Assembly: GCF_000430585.1 (NCBI RefSeq)
Contig: NZ_AUMH01000022.1
Location: 1-49,000 of the forward strand
Length of the DNA: 49,000 bases
Direction: 5' to 3'
From: Alicyclobacillus herbarius DSM 13609
GTDB taxonomy: Bacteria > Bacillota > Bacilli > Alicyclobacillales > Alicyclobacillaceae
Below are positions 1,039 through 42,331 of this stretch, one piece after another (positions within the stretch are counted from its first letter, which is position 1; the number at the start of each line of letters is the position of its first letter). The translations under genes and the position numbers were made by a program. A model generated the notes under the pieces. That model was not told where the DNA came from. It searched no databases and saw nothing but the letters and a program-made list of their open reading frames with translations.

Positions 1039-2322
1039 TCAGAACTGGGTCGGCTGTCCGCTGGCTGGTATAAAGCCCCTATTCGTCTCGGTTTCCGATT
1101 TCAAAAGCGAAGATATTAGAATGGCGATGACCAGAAAGGCCGCCAGCACATAGAAACCGACAAAACTGCTGTGCGTGACCTGCTTTAAGTAGCCAACTAG
1201 GTACGGACCAAGGAACCCACCTAGGTTCCCGATAGCGTTGATGATGCCCATGGCTGCCCCGACGACTTCGATGCGCAAGATGCGACTGGGGATGGCCCAG
1301 AACGGTCCGTAGGGGCCATAGACGCCGATGGCCGCAATGACGAGAAACACCATGCTGATCATGGGACCGTGCCCAAGCAACTGCCCGGCGACGAGCCCAA
1401 TCGTTCCGACGACCAGAGGCAAGGCGACGAACAACCGGCGTTTGCCCGTCTTGTCCGAGAGATATGAGGTCACAATCATCGACAGAAAAGCGAAGAAGAA
1501 GGGAACCGCAGAGAGCAGGCCGACCGTGCCAGATGAAGCAATGCCTTGAAAGGACTTAACGACGGACGGTTCCCAAAGCGAGAAGCCATAAAATCCGCTC
1601 ATCCAGAAGAAATACCCGGCTATCAACCACCAGACCGTCTTGTTCGTCAATGCGGCACGAAGCCCGGCGTCGTTTGGTTTAGTCTCGTTCTCCGCAGCCA
1701 AGACGCGAGTCGTCGCCGCTTTTTCCGATTCCGTCAGCCACCGGGCCGATTGCGGTTTGTCTGTGACCGTAAACCACCACACGAACGCCCAAATGATAGG
1801 CGGCGCCCCTTCAATGATAAAGATGTCCCGCCAATTGAGGAAAGTTAACAGCCACCCCGTCAATGGCGCCATGATTACGGCTGAAATGGGCAGACAGGTC
1901 ATCCAAAGCGCGTTCGCCCGCGCCCGCTCATCATTCGCAAACCACGAGGCGAGCAGGACCAACACCGCGGGCCAGACTCCACCCTCAAACACTCCCAGGA
2001 CAAACCGAGCTAGATACAATTGTGTGGGCGTTTTCACGAGACCCGTAGCCATGGCGGACAAACCCCAGAGAATCATCAGGATGAATACAACCTTTCGGGC
2101 ACTCCATCTGCTCGCTAGGTAGCCACCAGGGATTTGCAAGATCATATAGCCAACGAAGAAGATGCCGGAGGCAAAACCGGCGGCCGAACTGGTTATATGG
2201 AAAGAATCATCGATGTACGGCAGGATCATGGACACGTTGATCCGGTCCATGTACGCCATCATGTACATGACCACGGCAACCGGAATGATGTACCACCATC
2301 TCCGAACAGGCAGCGAATTCAT
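1039..2322 (-). CDS. MFS transporter, anion:cation symporter (ACS) type
   Basis: 427 residues with about 12 membrane spans. The first span is followed by YMDRINVSMILPYI, the signature of ACS-family carriers for sugar acids and aromatic acids (glucarate, galactonate, 4-hydroxyphenylacetate). A charged loop after the second half begins (LSDKTGKRR) matches the usual MFS loop motif. It is the last gene of an operon with a DUF1537 kinase and a PdxA2-type dehydrogenase, so the inferred substrate is a four-carbon acid sugar such as D-threonate or D-erythronate taken up with protons. The ATG at 2322 is set by GGAGG eight bases upstream; an earlier in-frame ATG at 2349 has no such site. Confidence 0.85.
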   Translation of the reverse strand: MNSLPVRRWWYIIPVAVVMYMMAYMDRINVSMILPYIDDSFHITSSAAGFASGIFFVGYMILQIPGGYLASRWSARKVVFILMILWGLSAMATGLVKTPTQLYLARFVLGVFEGGVWPAVLVLLASWFANDERARANALWMTCLPISAVIMAPLTGWLLTFLNWRDIFIIEGAPPIIWAFVWWFTVTDKPQSARWLTESEKAATTRVLAAENETKPNDAGLRAALTNKTVWWLIAGYFFWMSGFYGFSLWEPSVVKSFQGIASSGTVGLLSAVPFFFAFLSMIVTSYLSDKTGKRRLFVALPLVVGTIGLVAGQLLGHGPMISMVFLVIAAIGVYGPYGPFWAIPSRILRIEVVGAAMGIINAIGNLGGFLGPYLVGYLKQVTHSSFVGFYVLAAFLVIAILISSLLKSETETNRGFIPASGQPTQF

Positions 2323-2380
2323 GACAATCCTCCTCCGTTCCGCTCTCATGTTTCCGGTTTCATACGTGGTGTATAAAGAC

Positions 2381-2402
2381 CGCCGCCCGAGGAAGGGCGG
2401 CG
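2381..2402 (-). terminator. 8-bp GC hairpin between dehydrogenase and transporter genes
   Basis: CGCCGCCC-GAGGAA-GGGCGGCG in the 105-base gap inside the operon, followed on the minus strand by GTCTTTAT. It could act as a partial terminator or as an mRNA end-protecting hairpin that lowers transporter expression relative to the enzymes. Confidence 0.4.
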
Positions 2403-2427
2403 CATTGAAGTTACGCCCATGGGGACC

Positions 2428-3435
2428 CTACACCGGCTGATACTTCGGCGCGTAGCGAATGGCGGCGCGGATGGCTTCCACCATCGAGACGGCGGAGGCG
2501 ACGCCTTTACCAGCGATGTCGAAGGCCGTGCCGTGATCGACGCTGGTGCGAAGCGTCGGGAGCCCGAGCGTAATGGACACCGTCTTCTCAAAGTCCATCA
2601 CCTTGGCGGCGATATGCCCCTGGTCATGGTAGAGGGAGAGCACGGCGTCGTACTGACCCTGGCGCGCGAAGTGAAACACCGAATCGGCCGGCACGGGACC
2701 AACAACGTTCATCCCCTGGGCCAAAGCCCTTTCGATGGCCGGGCGGATGGACTCCACTTCCTCGCGGCCCAGGAGCCCGCCTTCGCCCGAGTGCGGGTTG
2801 AGCCCGGCCACGGCCAGCCGCGGCTTCTCCCCCGCGAGGGTCGTGAGCGCACGGTAGGCGCGGACAATTCCGGCGTGGACGAAGTCTGGATTGGCAATCT
2901 GGCGGCAGGCCTCAATCAACGGCACATGCCGCGTCAAGAAAAAGATGCGCACGTTCTCGATGAGGAACATGGTCATCTCGTTCTCTACGTGCTGCAAATC
3001 GGCGAACATTTCCGTGTGCCCGATGTAGGGCACCCCGGCGGCACGCAGCGCTTCCTTGTTGATGGGTGCCGTGACAATGGCGTCCACCTGACCGGCCTGC
3101 GCCAACTCGACGCTCCGCTTGACGTAGTCAAACGCGGCCTGGCCGCACTGCGCCTGAACCTGGCCGAGAGCGAGGCTGGCGACGTCAATGTTGTCCAAAT
3201 CCACAACATCGACCGTGCCCGCCGTATACAGCGCTTCGTTAGGCTGGGTCACCGCGTGAATGGAGACCGGGATCGACAGCCGCTGGCGGATGTCCTCCAA
3301 CACCGCGCGAGAGCCAATGACCAGCGGCCGGGCGCTCGCGTATAGCGCGGCGTCGGTCAAGGCCTTCAGCGTAATCTCTGGCCCAATGCCGGCGGCGTCT
3401 CCCATGGTGATGGCAATTACCGGACGTTCTAACAT
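2428..3435 (-). CDS. pdxA2: PdxA2-type 4-phospho-D-threonate/erythronate dehydrogenase
   Basis: 335 residues of the PdxA family. Members oxidise 4-phosphohydroxy-threonine (true PdxA) or, as PdxA2, the 4-phosphates of D-threonate and D-erythronate; the 3-keto product loses CO2 to give dihydroxyacetone phosphate. Seen: ITMGDAAGIGPEI near the start, PINKEALRAAGVPYIGHTE with a metal-ligand histidine, and near the end LYHDQGHIAAK and TSVDHGTAFDIAGKG, which carry the other metal-binding histidines. The neighbouring DUF1537 kinase, together with a sugar-acid carrier, argues for PdxA2 rather than pyridoxal phosphate synthesis. The ATG at 3435 follows GAGGAGGAG. A 96-base gap separates it from the kinase gene. 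Confidence 0.85.
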   Translation of the reverse strand: MLERPVIAITMGDAAGIGPEITLKALTDAALYASARPLVIGSRAVLEDIRQRLSIPVSIHAVTQPNEALYTAGTVDVVDLDNIDVASLALGQVQAQCGQAAFDYVKRSVELAQAGQVDAIVTAPINKEALRAAGVPYIGHTEMFADLQHVENEMTMFLIENVRIFFLTRHVPLIEACRQIANPDFVHAGIVRAYRALTTLAGEKPRLAVAGLNPHSGEGGLLGREEVESIRPAIERALAQGMNVVGPVPADSVFHFARQGQYDAVLSLYHDQGHIAAKVMDFEKTVSITLGLPTLRTSVDHGTAFDIAGKGVASAVSMVEAIRAAIRYAPKYQPV

Positions 3436-3531
3436 GCGTTCTCCTCCTCGTGATGGCAATCGAATGGATGTGGCGCCCGCTTATACGTGACACCCGCTGT
3501 ATGTGGCGCCTGCACGCCAACCCCAAGTTGG

Positions 3532-4755
3532 TCAGGCGCCAGACAGGAGCACCTGAACGCTGTCGTAGACGGCGCTTTCGGGCCCGACCGATCCGCCCTT
3601 GGTCACGACGCGCAGGTTGGCATAGGGGCCGGAGACGACGCGGCTGAGGATGCATAGCGGCCACACCTCGTGGATGGGTTCCAGCGCTTCCGCCCGCAGG
3701 CGGTGCAGCACCTCGTACGCGACCTCGCCGCCCGTCACGTAGAGTCCGTTCAGCGGCACGGTCTTCAGAACCGCTTCTGTGAGTTCCGCCAAGGCCTCTG
3801 AGACATCCACCGCCCGGCCGCCACTGCAGGCGACTCCGTCGGTGCGCACGCCGACAACCTGCTGCCTGGAGAACGCGTCGGCCACCTGGGCGGTGTAGGC
3901 CTGCAGGCTCTCCGCGCGCGTGTCCGCCTTGACGAGAGACATCGGATGAATGCGGATGAGTTCCCTCCCCAACCGAGTCTCCAGGTAATCGAGTTGGCGG
4001 CAAGTGGTGGGCATCGGACTCCCACAGACGAGAAAGACGCGGTTTTGCCCGGCCGCCAGGGCAGAGAAGTATTGGGCCGTGAACGGACCGGGATCGATGG
4101 GCAGAACGGGAACCGGCCAGGTAGCAAATGACCGGGCCAAGGTGGCGATGTCGTCATCCGTCTCCGCGTCGCAGATGACGAGCAGGCGTTCGCGCCCGAG
4201 GCTGCTATAGCGCCCTGCGACCGCGGAAAAGCCCTGCTCCACCTCGGCCGAGGTCAGAGACAGAACCGGCAAGCTGGTCTGCTGCCGCAGCAGCTCGACG
4301 AGGTTCGCTGATGTCACCGGGGTATGGATGTCGCGCGCGATTTCCGTCTCATCGACCGGAACCCCGTGCACGTATAAACGACCCCCGCGGACCGTCCGTC
4401 CCGATGCCGGGAAGGCGCACACCACCACTCCGACCGCCCGCTCGGGCAGGAGTTTCAGCATAGCCTCCGCCTCCGCCCCAATCGGGCCGCGAAACGTGCT
4501 GTCGATCCGCTTGGCAAACCGAGTATCGGTCCCCCATTCGGCAAGTACCCGCCGCATCAGGGCTTGCACGCGCTGGGCCGCTTCGGCAGGTGGCAGAAGC
4601 CGCGTGCCAGTGTTCCAGATGGTGGCGACGCCACGCCGTGGCGGGAGCACCTGGTCATGCCGCAGCAAGGTTTGGGCCTGCCAGCCGAGCTGTCGAAACA
4701 GCACCGCTTCCGCGTTGCAGCCGGTCAGGTCATCGCCGAATACGAGGATATTCAT
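3532..4755 (-). CDS. dtnK: DUF1537 four-carbon acid sugar kinase
   Basis: 407 residues. The family phosphorylates D-threonate, D-erythronate and related acids with ATP. N-terminal sugar-binding half opens MNILVFGDDLTGCNAEA with the paired aspartates; KRIDSTFRGPIGAEAEAM is the second family block. The C-terminal nucleotide-binding half has TGGEVAYEVLHRL and VVTKGGSVGPESAV. It is the first gene of the operon and makes the substrate for the PdxA2-type enzyme. Two ATGs lie six bases apart; the one at 4755 is taken because AGGAGG stands eight bases before it and only two before the other. Which stereoisomer is used cannot be told from sequence. Confidence 0.85.
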   Translation of the reverse strand: MNILVFGDDLTGCNAEAVLFRQLGWQAQTLLRHDQVLPPRRGVATIWNTGTRLLPPAEAAQRVQALMRRVLAEWGTDTRFAKRIDSTFRGPIGAEAEAMLKLLPERAVGVVVCAFPASGRTVRGGRLYVHGVPVDETEIARDIHTPVTSANLVELLRQQTSLPVLSLTSAEVEQGFSAVAGRYSSLGRERLLVICDAETDDDIATLARSFATWPVPVLPIDPGPFTAQYFSALAAGQNRVFLVCGSPMPTTCRQLDYLETRLGRELIRIHPMSLVKADTRAESLQAYTAQVADAFSRQQVVGVRTDGVACSGGRAVDVSEALAELTEAVLKTVPLNGLYVTGGEVAYEVLHRLRAEALEPIHEVWPLCILSRVVSGPYANLRVVTKGGSVGPESAVYDSVQVLLSGA

Positions 4756-38968: not shown

Positions 38969-39182
38969 ATTGTTCTTCTTTTTTGTTCAGACCGTACTTG
39001 CGGTTGAAGCGCTCGACGCGTCCGCCCGTATCGACAAACTTCTGTTTGCCCGTGAAGAACGGATGGCAGTTCGAGCAGATTTCGACGCGCAGGTTCTCTT
39101 TGACGGAACCCGTCTCGAACGAGTTCCCGCACGCACAGGTCACCGTCGTGATATGATAATCCGGATGGATGCCTGTTTTCAT
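38967..39182 (-). CDS. rpmE: Ribosomal protein bL31 (zinc form)
   Basis: 71 residues. Zinc ligands C16, C18, C36, C39 intact (CACG and CSNC). Opens [19 protein letters not shown] at 39182 after AAAGAGGTGAG. Ends in its own terminator. Confidence 0.97.
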
Positions 39183-39431: not shown

Positions 39432-39663
39432 TCACGCGCTGGATTTCCTGCTTCCTTGAGGCTTGCCTTGACGCCTCGCAGACTGCTTGCGCCCTGGTCT
39501 TACAGCCTCTCCACAGGCTAACACCGCCAGCCCGGCGGCTAAGATGTTCTTTGCGGCATTCACGTCTCGGTCGTGATGCTCTCCACATTTCGGACACGTC
39601 CATTGCCGAATGTCGAGAGGCATTTTCGGCATGATGTGGCCGCATTGGGAACACCGTTTGCGT
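39432..39663 (-). pseudogene. tnpB: TnpB remnant: C-terminal zinc ribbon only
   Basis: About 77 codons in frame: RKRCSQCGH and then WTCPKCGEHHDRDVNAAKNI, the zinc-ribbon cysteines and the final RuvC aspartate block of TnpB, followed by a short tail and TGA. Everything upstream is missing: the left-end repeat (39664-39728) is joined directly to the zinc ribbon, so a deletion removed the start, helix-turn-helix and most of RuvC. It cannot make an active nuclease. Confidence 0.75.
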
Positions 39664-39838: not shown

Positions 39839-40408
39839 TCAATTCGAGGTCTTCAAAACGTCGTGGTCCACCCAGCGTTCCCCGTTCAACTCGCTGATGA
39901 TGTTGATGGCCACGCGGGCGCCGTCGCCAGAGGTGATGATGGTGTGGACACTGGTACCAGCCACCGTACCGGCCGCCCAGATACCAGGCACGCTTGTGCG
40001 TCCGTCTGCGTCCACCACAATGACGGTTTTGATGCGCGGCTCCGTGGCAGGCTTGGTCTTAAGGCCCACCTGCTCGGCAAGGTCTGTCCACAACCCGGTT
40101 GCAAACAAGACGTGCTTCGCCTCAAACCGACTGTCCTCGGTGAGGAGGGCGAACCCTTCCGCCAACTTTTCAATTCCTGTCACTTTCGTCTCAACGATGG
40201 TGGCACCAAATCGTTGCGCCTGCTGCTTGCCCTGCTCCACCAGGTCAGGGCCAGTGATGCGGTCAATCCCGTAGTGATTCTCAATCCAGGCTCGTCGCGT
40301 AACGCTCTGATTGCTGTCCAACACGACCGTCTTCTTCCCCGCGCGGGCAGCAAAAATGGCGGCACTGGCACCCGCTGGCCCGGCGCCGATAATGGCGATA
40401 TCGTACAT
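39839..40408 (-). CDS. Minimal FAD-binding protein, thioredoxin-reductase-like
   Basis: 189 residues, much shorter than thioredoxin reductases (about 310). N-terminal dinucleotide fold MYDIAIIGAGPAGASAAIFA. The C-terminal VPGIWAAGTVAGTSVHTII resembles the second FAD motif, but the usual Asp of AAGD is Thr. The NADPH domain with its CxxC redox pair is missing altogether. It may be a flavoprotein that takes electrons from a partner, a binding protein, or a decayed reductase. ATG at 40408 with GAGAGGAGTGGGAGG upstream; an in-frame extension to 40525 has no site. The divergent neighbour is the repeat peptide gene. Confidence 0.7.
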   Translation of the reverse strand: MYDIAIIGAGPAGASAAIFAARAGKKTVVLDSNQSVTRRAWIENHYGIDRITGPDLVEQGKQQAQRFGATIVETKVTGIEKLAEGFALLTEDSRFEAKHVLFATGLWTDLAEQVGLKTKPATEPRIKTVIVVDADGRTSVPGIWAAGTVAGTSVHTIITSGDGARVAINIISELNGERWVDHDVLKTSN

Positions 40409-40552
40409 CCTCCCACTCCTCTCTGCTTGCCTGACCTCTATTTTGAAGAATCTGCACGGCGATTTCCACTCCTTCATGCAAAAGACGCAGGCGGACGTAA
40501 GCCATCCATTGGCCCCATTCGCCAAAATAATAGTTATTTATCCTTAATTTCA

Positions 40553-40582
40553 TTGATTTGGAATGGTTGCGCACGCTATGCT
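40553..40582 (+). promoter_or_regulatory. Possible promoter for the repeat-peptide gene
   Basis: TTGATT (40553-40558), 18 bases, TATGCT (40577-40582), about 45 bases before the ATG at 40627. Moderate match to sigma-A; no sigma-H pattern fitted. Confidence 0.35.
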
Positions 40583-40626
40583 GTTCCTGTGCTTGGCCAT
40601 ATACCTAGGGGAAGGGGTTGGATGTA

Positions 40627-40815
40627 ATGAAAAAGTGGCTTTCTATCGTACTGGGTGGCGTTGTCTGCTTCCTGTTCGGTGGTATCACCGCCTTTGCCAA
40701 TCCGCAACCCAACGGCGACCTGGAGTGGCCTGAGTGGCTGGCCACACACAGCCCGCAGCCAGCTGGAGACCTGGAATGGCCAGAGTGCCTGAATACCCCG
40801 TCGTCGCCACAATAA
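40627..40815 (+). CDS. Small secreted peptide precursor with two GDLEWPE repeats
   Basis: 62 residues. Residues 1-24 form a classic signal sequence: MKKW, a hydrophobic core (LSIVLGGVVCFLFGGI) and a TAFA cleavage-type end. The remaining 38 residues hold two copies of a 13-residue unit: PQPNGDLEWPEWL and PQPAGDLEWPECL, each followed by a Thr/Ser-rich spacer. Between the copies five of seven codon differences are synonymous, so the peptide sequence seems to be kept by selection. GAAGGGG lies nine bases before the ATG at 40627. I recognise no family. The layout (signal, then tandem short peptide) resembles exported pheromone precursors, but no receptor or protease gene is nearby. It might also be a surface or antimicrobial peptide. 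Confidence 0.65.
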   Translation: MKKWLSIVLGGVVCFLFGGITAFANPQPNGDLEWPEWLATHSPQPAGDLEWPECLNTPSSPQ

Positions 40816-41077: not shown

Positions 41078-42331
41078 TCAGGCTTTTTTCTCCTTGCGCA
41101 GCTCTAAACTCGCGAGAAATTCCGCGTTCGTCTTGTAGTGCTTGAACTTGCGGATAAACAGTTCCGTGAAATCCTGGTTGTCACCCATCGACTTGCGGAT
41201 GGCCCAGACCTTTTCCAGCTCCTCCCGGCTCTGAAGCAGCTCTTCCCGGCGTGTCCCGGAACGGCGAATGTCGATAGCCGGAAAGACACGCTTCTCGGCC
41301 AAGCGGCGTTCCAAGTGCAGCTCCATGTTTCCGGTGCCCTTGAACTCTTCGTAAATCACGTCATCCATGCGCGATCCGGTTTCCACCAAGGCGGTTGCGA
41401 GGATAGTCAGGCTGCCGCCCTCCTCGACGTTACGCGCCGCGCCAAAAAACCGTTTCGGGCGGTGGAACGCGGCCGGATCGATACCACCAGAAAGGGTACG
41501 GCCACTGGGCGGTACGACCAGGTTGTACGCGCGAGCCAGACGCGTGATGCTGTCGAGCAGGATAACCACGTCCCGCTTATGTTCGACCAAACGTAGCGCC
41601 CGTTCCAACACCAATTCCGCGACCTTGATGTGGTTTTCCGGTACTTCGTCAAACGTGGACGCGATGACTTCCCCTTTGACCGACCGCTGCATATCGGTCA
41701 CTTCTTCAGGGCGTTCGTCAATGAGCAGAATCAAGAGCTCGCTTTCTGGATGGTTAATCGCAATGCTGTTGGCAATTTCCTTCAGTAAGACGGTCTTCCC
41801 GGCTTTCGGCGGCGCTACAATCAATCCACGCTGTCCAAATCCGATGGGCGTGAACAGATCAATGATGCGGGTAGCAATCCGTTCCGGCGTCGTCTCAAGG
41901 GTCATCCGTTTCTGAGGAAACAGTGGGGTGAGAGCGGGGAAGTGAAGTCGTTCGGCAGCCTGCTCGGGACTCACTTGATTCACGGCTTCGACGTGCAGGA
42001 GCCCGAAGTACCGTTCGTTTTCCTTCGGCGGTCTCACCTTGCCGGAGACCAAGTCTCCGGTTCTTAAATCAAAGCGGCGGATTTGCGATGCGGCTACGTA
42101 GATGTCTTCTGCGCTGGGCAGGTAGCCGACCGGTCTCAAGAATCCGTAGCCGTCAGGCATGATTTCCAGGATGCCTTCGGCAAACATGAGTCCGTCTTTT
42201 TCTGCTTGTGCTTTCAGAATGGCAAAGATGAGTTCGCGCTTTTTCATCGACCCGTAATACGGGATTTGGAACTCTCGCGCGAGTTGATAGAGTTCTGTTA
42301 ACTTCTTCGATTCGAGATCCCGTATGTCCAA
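41078..42331 (-). CDS. rho: Transcription termination factor Rho
   Basis: 417 residues. N-terminal helical domain, then the cold-shock-like RNA-binding domain ([20 protein letters not shown]), then the RecA-like ATPase with Walker A APPKAGKT at 173-180, [15 protein letters not shown] and the secondary RNA-site region [18 protein letters not shown]. Hexameric ATP-driven RNA translocase. The start is TTG at 42331 after GTGGGGG. The leader is over 120 bases long (see 42391-42469). Confidence 0.95.

Follow-up and report, generated by a model that had tools for sequence, protein, structure and literature searches.

The gene studied here lies between rpmE and rho on contig NZ_AUMH01000022.1 (C22) of Alicyclobacillus herbarius DSM 13609, whose genome (G000) comprises 3.31 Mb; the window is the whole stretch of 49,000 nucleotides that was analysed. 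Below, G numbers denote genomes and g numbers genera, f1 is the window's family (Alicyclobacillaceae), f2 the other family of the order, and f35 and f36 are families outside the order. The features of the locus are as follows, in window coordinates:

38970..39182, minus strand: rpmE (L31), left border of the conserved interval (NCBIfam L31; synteny)
40553..40582, plus strand: putative sigma-A-type promoter, TTGATT-N18-TATGCT (similar elements 5' of the orthologues, by eye)
40608..40617, plus strand: ribosome-binding-site-like purine run GGGGAAGGGG, kept in both congeners (G021, G022)
40627..40815, plus strand: coding sequence of a predicted secreted pro-peptide, 62 aa, ATG start (in-frame orthologues in G021 and G022; dN/dS)
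40627..40698, plus strand: signal sequence, residues 1–24, with predicted cleavage after AFA (sequence inspection; AFA invariant in a five-row alignment)
40702..40740, plus strand: unit 1, PQPNGDLEWPEWL (compared with unit 2 by codon changes)
40753..40791, plus strand: unit 2, PQPAGDLEWPECL (in the stretch of codons 42–57)
41081..42331, minus strand: rho, right border of the conserved interval (NCBIfam rho; synteny)

A sequence-only reading had singled out a 62-residue frame with a signal-like start and a ribosome-site-like run; the frame is indeed found at 40627–40815 on the plus strand, with both features in place. The translation reads MKKW...AFA followed by NPQPNGDLEWPEWLATHSPQPAGDLEWPECLNTPSSPQ, with AFA (residues 22–24) forming a signal-peptidase-type site. 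The same reading matched the peptide to no known sequence, and neither Pfam nor NCBIfam gives a significant match. At its threshold, a consensus scan of the window returned no promoter or terminator, the putative TTGATT-N18-TATGCT element included. Two other elements occupy the left part of the interval. A thioredoxin-reductase-like flavoprotein gene (39839–40525, minus strand) adjoins the peptide gene and is on the opposite strand in two congeners, a switch due to local inversion or re-insertion; between it and rpmE lies a remnant of the C-terminus of a TnpB-type RNA-guided endonuclease (39432–39632, minus strand).

The 13-residue units are alike at all but 2 positions and, as had been pointed out, the differences between the copies are mostly silent (6 synonymous and 3 non-synonymous changes by NG86; dS 1.77, dN 0.11). 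When the 41 family genomes were searched with the window peptide, G021 and G022 gave strong matches (69% identity over all 62 residues) and G025 and G024 weaker ones; the remaining weak matches were not counted as homologues. A scan of named genomes yielded orthologue records from A. shizuokensis NBRC 103103, A. kakegawensis NBRC 103104 and a MAG, Alicyclobacillus sp., the orthologues of A. kakegawensis and A. shizuokensis being in frame with two units. Missing or frameshifted homologues had been named as the mark of a chance frame, and the search did not bear this out. Because G021 and G022 keep the 62 codons gap-free amid flanks with many gaps, and because dN is 0.23 and dS 1.81 between G000 and G021 over the coding sequence, the frame is not a chance one; in-frame orthologues, synteny and dN/dS together rule this out, and the proposal that the peptide is under selection stands.

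By contrast, the GDLEWPE unit that had been thought conserved is not kept in relatives: the first copy reads GELKWPQGL or RDLGWPEKL in the congeners G021 and G022 and the second GDLEEPEWL, and the literal motif was rejected as the conserved element. It is the second copy that varies least, since between G021 and G022 the unit-1 stretch shows 9 non-synonymous changes and the unit-2 stretch (codons 42–57) 0. Across the order, only a looser Pro / aromatic-or-Leu / Pro pattern appears to recur, as judged by eye from the sequences. The suggestion that repeat number might vary between relatives proved apt: there are two units in g1, one in g5 (a second genus, whose 44-aa orthologues carry the single unit QYVEWPDWL and end in ADI) and one or two in f36.

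The rpmE–rho interval was compared across the order. For f1, rpmE was found in 40 of the 41 genomes, and stretches from 39 of them plus the window were available, 36 of the 40 holding both rpmE and rho; for f2 (18 genomes, rpmE in 14), 13 stretches were fetched and 12 hold both genes. Of these 48 complete intervals, 28 (22 of 36 in f1, with one further doubtful case, and 6 of 12 in f2) contain a gene for a small secreted or membrane-tethered peptide, always antisense to both border genes; this tally was made, partly by eye, on the basis of a hydrophobic start, a ribosome site and the tail. The candidate of G035 (MKGWTWK...MGPDWQ) is doubtful and was left out of the counts, and G032, where an in-frame ...PEPPDWLD tail is seen by eye in the expected position but no signal sequence precedes it, was scored as lacking the peptide. 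Such counts depend on the filter, since the peptide of G028 was missed by the first one and found by eye, then by a looser one. A strict rule applied to both strands called a peptide in 18 of the 48 intervals on the peptide strand and in 1 of 48 on the other, the mean over 100 approximate dinucleotide shuffles being 0.85 and the maximum 5.

Tails are mostly SFxFLP-x-WPDE-like in g2 and read QVVEWPPWM in g13, DPEWPDWF in g9, LEQPDWL in g16 and EPVWLEPPDD in g7; those of f2 are PNFMTLPP-like and PNYLIMPP-like, and that of g3 (LELPGFHED) is poorly alike to the others. Between genera, the peptides are taken to be homologous from their shared position and orientation and from upstream regions that are partly alike, not from sequence scores. 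Note that the rpmE–rho gap of G031 (coded g9; L085) contains two small ORFs that are identical in every letter to those in the gap of G020 (g4; L075), so that G031 may be mis-binned or misplaced.

Within g2, the last 15 codons have a dN of 0–0.10 in nine pairs, which are not independent of one another, as against 0.07–0.52 for the linker, the linker and tail values being close (0.09 and 0.12) for G007/G008. The g2 peptide thus has a nearly frozen end and a mostly drifting linker, a pattern like that reported for the Phr3T and Phr105 pheromone propeptides (PMC11343458). The gene can also be lost: in G023, the upstream region and the first codons remain and the rest of the coding sequence is deleted relative to G024 and G025, and a promoter-like remnant is recognised by eye in G004. 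The peptide is dispensable in G023, which fits a signal gene or any other dispensable gene.

Outside the order, a class-wide draw comprised 141 genomes, and 40 rpmE stretches were fetched, 35 of which hold rho. In all four f36 genomes drawn, the rpmE–rho interval contains an HTH-TPR gene (ORF of 429–458 aa) and, about 250–310 bases after it on the same strand, a gene for a Trp-rich peptide of the secreted type. The units are WWNETGPNH and WWNEPGPNH in G154, WWNEPGPNH and WWNENGPNH in G164, WWSEHEPNH twice, identically, in G184, and a single WWNDHEPNE in G174. A candidate peptide is present in the interval of G144 (f35), without a regulator there, and no peptide was called in the other 35 rpmE stretches from outside the order. 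A search with a type A protein gave nine further HTH-TPR loci in f36 and f35, none of which has a convincing neighbouring peptide (the ORF at one of them, L257, is antisense to the regulator itself and was not counted); the three rpmE-locus copies in the set had one. Each of G154, G164, G174 and G184 contains 29–52 matches to the HTH-TPR query, a large set of putative peptide-sensing regulators.

A co-occurring TPR-type receptor had been suggested as something to look for. None stands beside the peptide in the window's family, and Rap was not found in it: at E 0.01, RapH_N (PF18801) matched none of the 41 family genomes, with a positive B. subtilis control, and a Rap–Phr system was rejected on this ground. 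RNPP_C receptors as partners likewise led nowhere, PF18768 having no match in G000 and matches in 2 of 41 genomes, one of them over the cut-off; this model may not cover all members, since B. subtilis was not among its positive controls. Elsewhere in G000, however, there are at least five HTH-TPR regulators, as recognised by a TPR_12 search and ORF reading at seven places (a further TPR_12 place, C2:77968, lies outside these seven). Besides the one at L131, called type B, they include the following, in locus coordinates:

L128 (G000:C10:50500-57500), 2874-4193, minus strand: type A regulator, between dacF and spoIIAA-spoIIAB-sigF, divergent from spoIIA
L126, 2925-4283, minus strand: HTH-TPR regulator, adjacent small ORF at 4340-4456 (plus strand)
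L129, 2535-3782, plus strand: HTH-TPR regulator, adjacent small ORF at 2314-2445 (minus strand)
L130, 845-2104, plus strand: HTH-TPR regulator, adjacent small ORF at 2140-2262 (plus strand)

The type A regulator is defined by its linkage to spoIIA. At this locus SpoIIAB and SigF score above their NCBIfam cut-offs, and SpoIIAA 1 bit under its own and above that of its superfamily; the product of the remaining neighbour matches D-Ala-D-Ala carboxypeptidases in NCBIfam, with scores under the cut-offs of the named models, and the gene is called dacF here from its position. Type A queries found a match in 47 of the 59 genomes of the order at E 1e-15, and type B queries in 41 of 59, cross-hits included. 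Gene order was checked in 41 of the 47 type A best matches, and the arrangement dacF (plus), regulator (minus), spoIIAA, spoIIAB and sigF (plus) recurs at all 30 of the f1 loci and, in f2, at 10 of 11 (the contig of the eleventh ends after the regulator); it is also found in G144. The neighbours deoB and comF seen in G000 were rejected as general context: none of 30 type A loci has deoB in its flanks, and a comF-like gene lies beside 9 of 30 type B loci. Because they are not general, the neutral names type A and type B were chosen.

The adjoining ORFs at L126, L129 and L130 encode secreted-looking products of 38–43 aa, those at L129 and L130 without a Pfam match, and these loci are possible regulator–peptide pairs. 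Weak small ORFs lie within 1500 bases at 6 of 60 regulator loci; none was seen to recur among relatives, and the regulators were therefore treated as solitary.

The f36 regulator links the peptide to type A in one direction of search. When the regulator of the f36 rpmE locus was used as query, 45 of the 49 genomes with a match had their top match at the type A locus (hand count), the exceptions being G001, G028, G035 and G050. The TPR part alone gives 62 bits for type A and 13 bits for type B in G000; across genomes, the scores are 20–85 bits for type A and up to 30 for type B, ranges that overlap. In the reverse search with the type A protein of G024, the best f36 match is another paralogue in 4 of 4 genomes, the rpmE-locus regulator coming second in three genomes and fourth in G174 among the 29–52 matches of each. 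One-to-one orthology is thus not favoured and, since f36 has many paralogues and the reverse search picks others, the pair seen in f36 and the peptide of Alicyclobacillus may be unrelated. The regulator tree does not settle the placement of the f36 regulator.

Co-occurrence was scored in 47 genomes, with states assigned by hand and G035 left out. Phylogeny ignored, the peptide is associated both with type A (27/1 versus 11/8, Fisher p 0.0016) and with type B (23/5 versus 6/13, Fisher p 0.0007); type A occurs without a detected peptide in eleven genomes, and the peptide without type A in one. An analysis that took phylogeny into account had only 6 independent pairs with support and gave no significant result for either regulator. 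Because co-occurrence is confounded by phylogeny, type B does no worse and the reverse search is unfavourable, the peptide is paired with type A only tentatively, as a hypothesis.

The AlphaFold models of the f36 regulator (pLDDT 90.3) and of type A from G000 (pLDDT 92.2) both show an HTH domain and a TPR superhelix. Initial fold searches returned mostly generic TPR proteins, with PlcR–PapR at ranks 33 and 47 in one and at rank 37 in another, where Rap of pLS20 held ranks 45–46; NprR surfaced in a second comparison. The f36 model aligns with apo NprR (5dbk) with a Z of 25.3 (rmsd 6.7, 346 residues aligned) and with Rap–CSF (4gyo) with a Z of 23.7. Eukaryotic LGN-type TPR proteins reach a Z of 27–29 and, since they outscore NprR, the fold alone does not show pheromone binding.

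With moderate confidence, we propose that the gene product is exported and processed to a short linear signalling peptide of the RRNPP/RRNPPA kind, which would be read by an unlinked HTH-TPR factor, type A being the leading candidate. From the gene, the selection on it, its synteny, the architecture and position of the regulators and the regulator–peptide pair of f36, we infer the following course from secretion and maturation to import, binding and output. The precursor would be exported by Sec, and signal peptidase and extracellular proteases would free one or two Trp-Pro core peptides; these would be re-imported and bind an HTH-TPR transcription factor in the cytoplasm, the gene of which lies at another place on the chromosome. 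Type A, solitary and divergent from the spoIIA operon (spoIIAA-spoIIAB-sigF), is the candidate put first, and its divergent position suggests that it may control the sigF operon. If it is the receptor, the peptide would be a density cue for sporulation. The extension of this scheme to the whole order, in which an orphan pheromone from the rpmE–rho interval, with a lineage-specific core and copy number, would be read by type A and set sigma-F operon transcription by cell density, is speculative, and we regard it as rather doubtful.

An alternative that we consider unlikely, if still to be reckoned with, is that the product is an extracytoplasmic or membrane-tethered structural or regulatory peptide, whose N-terminus anchors it and whose Trp/Pro/acidic tail binds an envelope partner, cell–cell signalling playing no part. 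Several f2 members and that of G040 indeed have a hydrophobic helix without a clear signal-peptidase (AxA) site, which, like the lack of an adjacent receptor and the order-wide recurrence of the tail pattern, agrees with tethering. A tethered peptide accounts less well for the varying number of units, including the two identical copies that G184 carries of its own unit variant, for the frozen C-terminus and mostly drifting linker of g2, and for the HTH-TPR gene directly upstream in f36.

It is less probable still that the peptide is a pheromone read by another HTH-TPR protein (type B, or those of L126, L129 and L130), type A having a different ligand. The slightly tighter co-occurrence of type B, phylogeny ignored, and the lack of a convincing peptide gene in its flanks speak for this assignment; however, type B is absent from the peptide-bearing G030 and from most f2 genomes and is less like the f36 regulator than type A, and each of the other three regulators has its own small ORF beside it, with a secreted-looking product. 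Finally, an antimicrobial or RiPP precursor, perhaps modified by a neighbouring radical-SAM enzyme, is very improbable: a radical-SAM gene does lie in the interval in g3, g5, g8, 2 of 3 g9, g11, g12 and 12 of 13 f2 stretches, and the core is Trp-rich, but many stretches have the enzyme and no peptide, and the enzyme was rejected as a partner, being absent from the fetched g1 and g2 stretches and having its best NCBIfam matches far below cut-off. Immunity or export genes were not noticed next to the peptide gene in the stretches read.

The resemblance in kind to exported pheromone precursors pointed out by the sequence-only reading is supported, as is the export-type start. Like RRNPP/RRNPPA propeptides, the product is a short precursor with a basic N-terminus and a hydrophobic export segment (from sequence and a hydropathy scan; the G028 peptide has no Lys or Arg) and is conserved over a short mature segment and less so in the rest, as judged from the g2 codon analysis. 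Unlike them, it has no receptor gene next to it, the HTH-TPR gene of the rpmE–rho interval being found only in f36 and not in the window. The f36 and type A proteins have the N-terminal HTH and TPR superhelix of PlcR/NprR-type regulators (HTH_3 and TPR_12 above cut-off); the RNPP_C domain of such regulators has no match in G000.

The excerpted text of PMC11343458 describes Phr precursors of Rap systems as short and Sec-type with one or two pseudo-repeated units, the units being conserved and the spacer drifting, as for the tandem units of the Phr3T and Phr105 propeptides; in these respects they are like the window peptide. However, the Phr core is of the RGHT type in that text and that of the window peptide Trp/Pro/acidic, the window's family lacks RapH_N (41 genomes) and an adjacent receptor, and the Phr N-terminal model TIGR04429 has no match in the window peptide and gives 12.3 bits, against a cut-off of 25, for the G024 orthologue. 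Multiple peptide copies are reported for AimR, NprR, PlcR and Rap propeptides, and repeats for the large propeptides of NprR systems, in passages of PMC9765709. By architecture, the f36 pair is like AloR–AloP of Paenibacillaceae, for which part of PMC7425212 describes an HTH-TPR receptor followed by a secreted precursor, with many paralogues per genome; there, AloR-like matches belong essentially to Paenibacillaceae, and the peptide of the window's family is unlinked. NprR–NprX is like f36 in the HTH and TPR superhelix of the regulator, by fold comparison (Z 25.3), and unlike the window's family, whose peptide is not adjacent to a receptor. RstA of Clostridioides difficile is, by its description in portions of PMC6414698, an RRNPP-type regulator that influences sporulation and has no adjacent peptide gene; its ligand is unknown, whereas the window's order has a candidate orphan peptide family.

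According to the sections of PMC9765709 consulted, most known receptors adjoin their peptide genes, PrgX being named as an exception, and portions of PMC6414698 mention unlinked and orphan RRNPP-type cases. Adjacent RRNPP pairs have been predicted before in Alicyclobacillaceae, since the excerpt of PMC10075063 mentions the family once, for gene clusters near predicted pairs. The literature search gave, among the matches listed, no description of the peptide family or of a spoIIA-linked TPR regulator. Since most receptors adjoin their peptides, with exceptions, and no such description was found, we call the peptide a new variant of the RRNPP type, a family of RRNPP-like precursors that are unlinked and conserved in position.

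That some RRNPP-type regulators have no known peptide is an open problem, raised for RstA in part of PMC6414698. Here, an orphan peptide family and solitary regulators occur in one order, both at fixed chromosomal positions, which makes the peptides directly synthesisable and testable. The findings suggest that searches made only beside receptors miss unlinked peptides. If the pairing is true, Alicyclobacillus, whose members are spore-formers that spoil fruit juice, would gain a peptide input into sporulation, in a family in which no Rap was found (41 genomes); and if the order-wide circuit is true, sporulation would be gated at the sigF operon and not via Rap–Spo0F.
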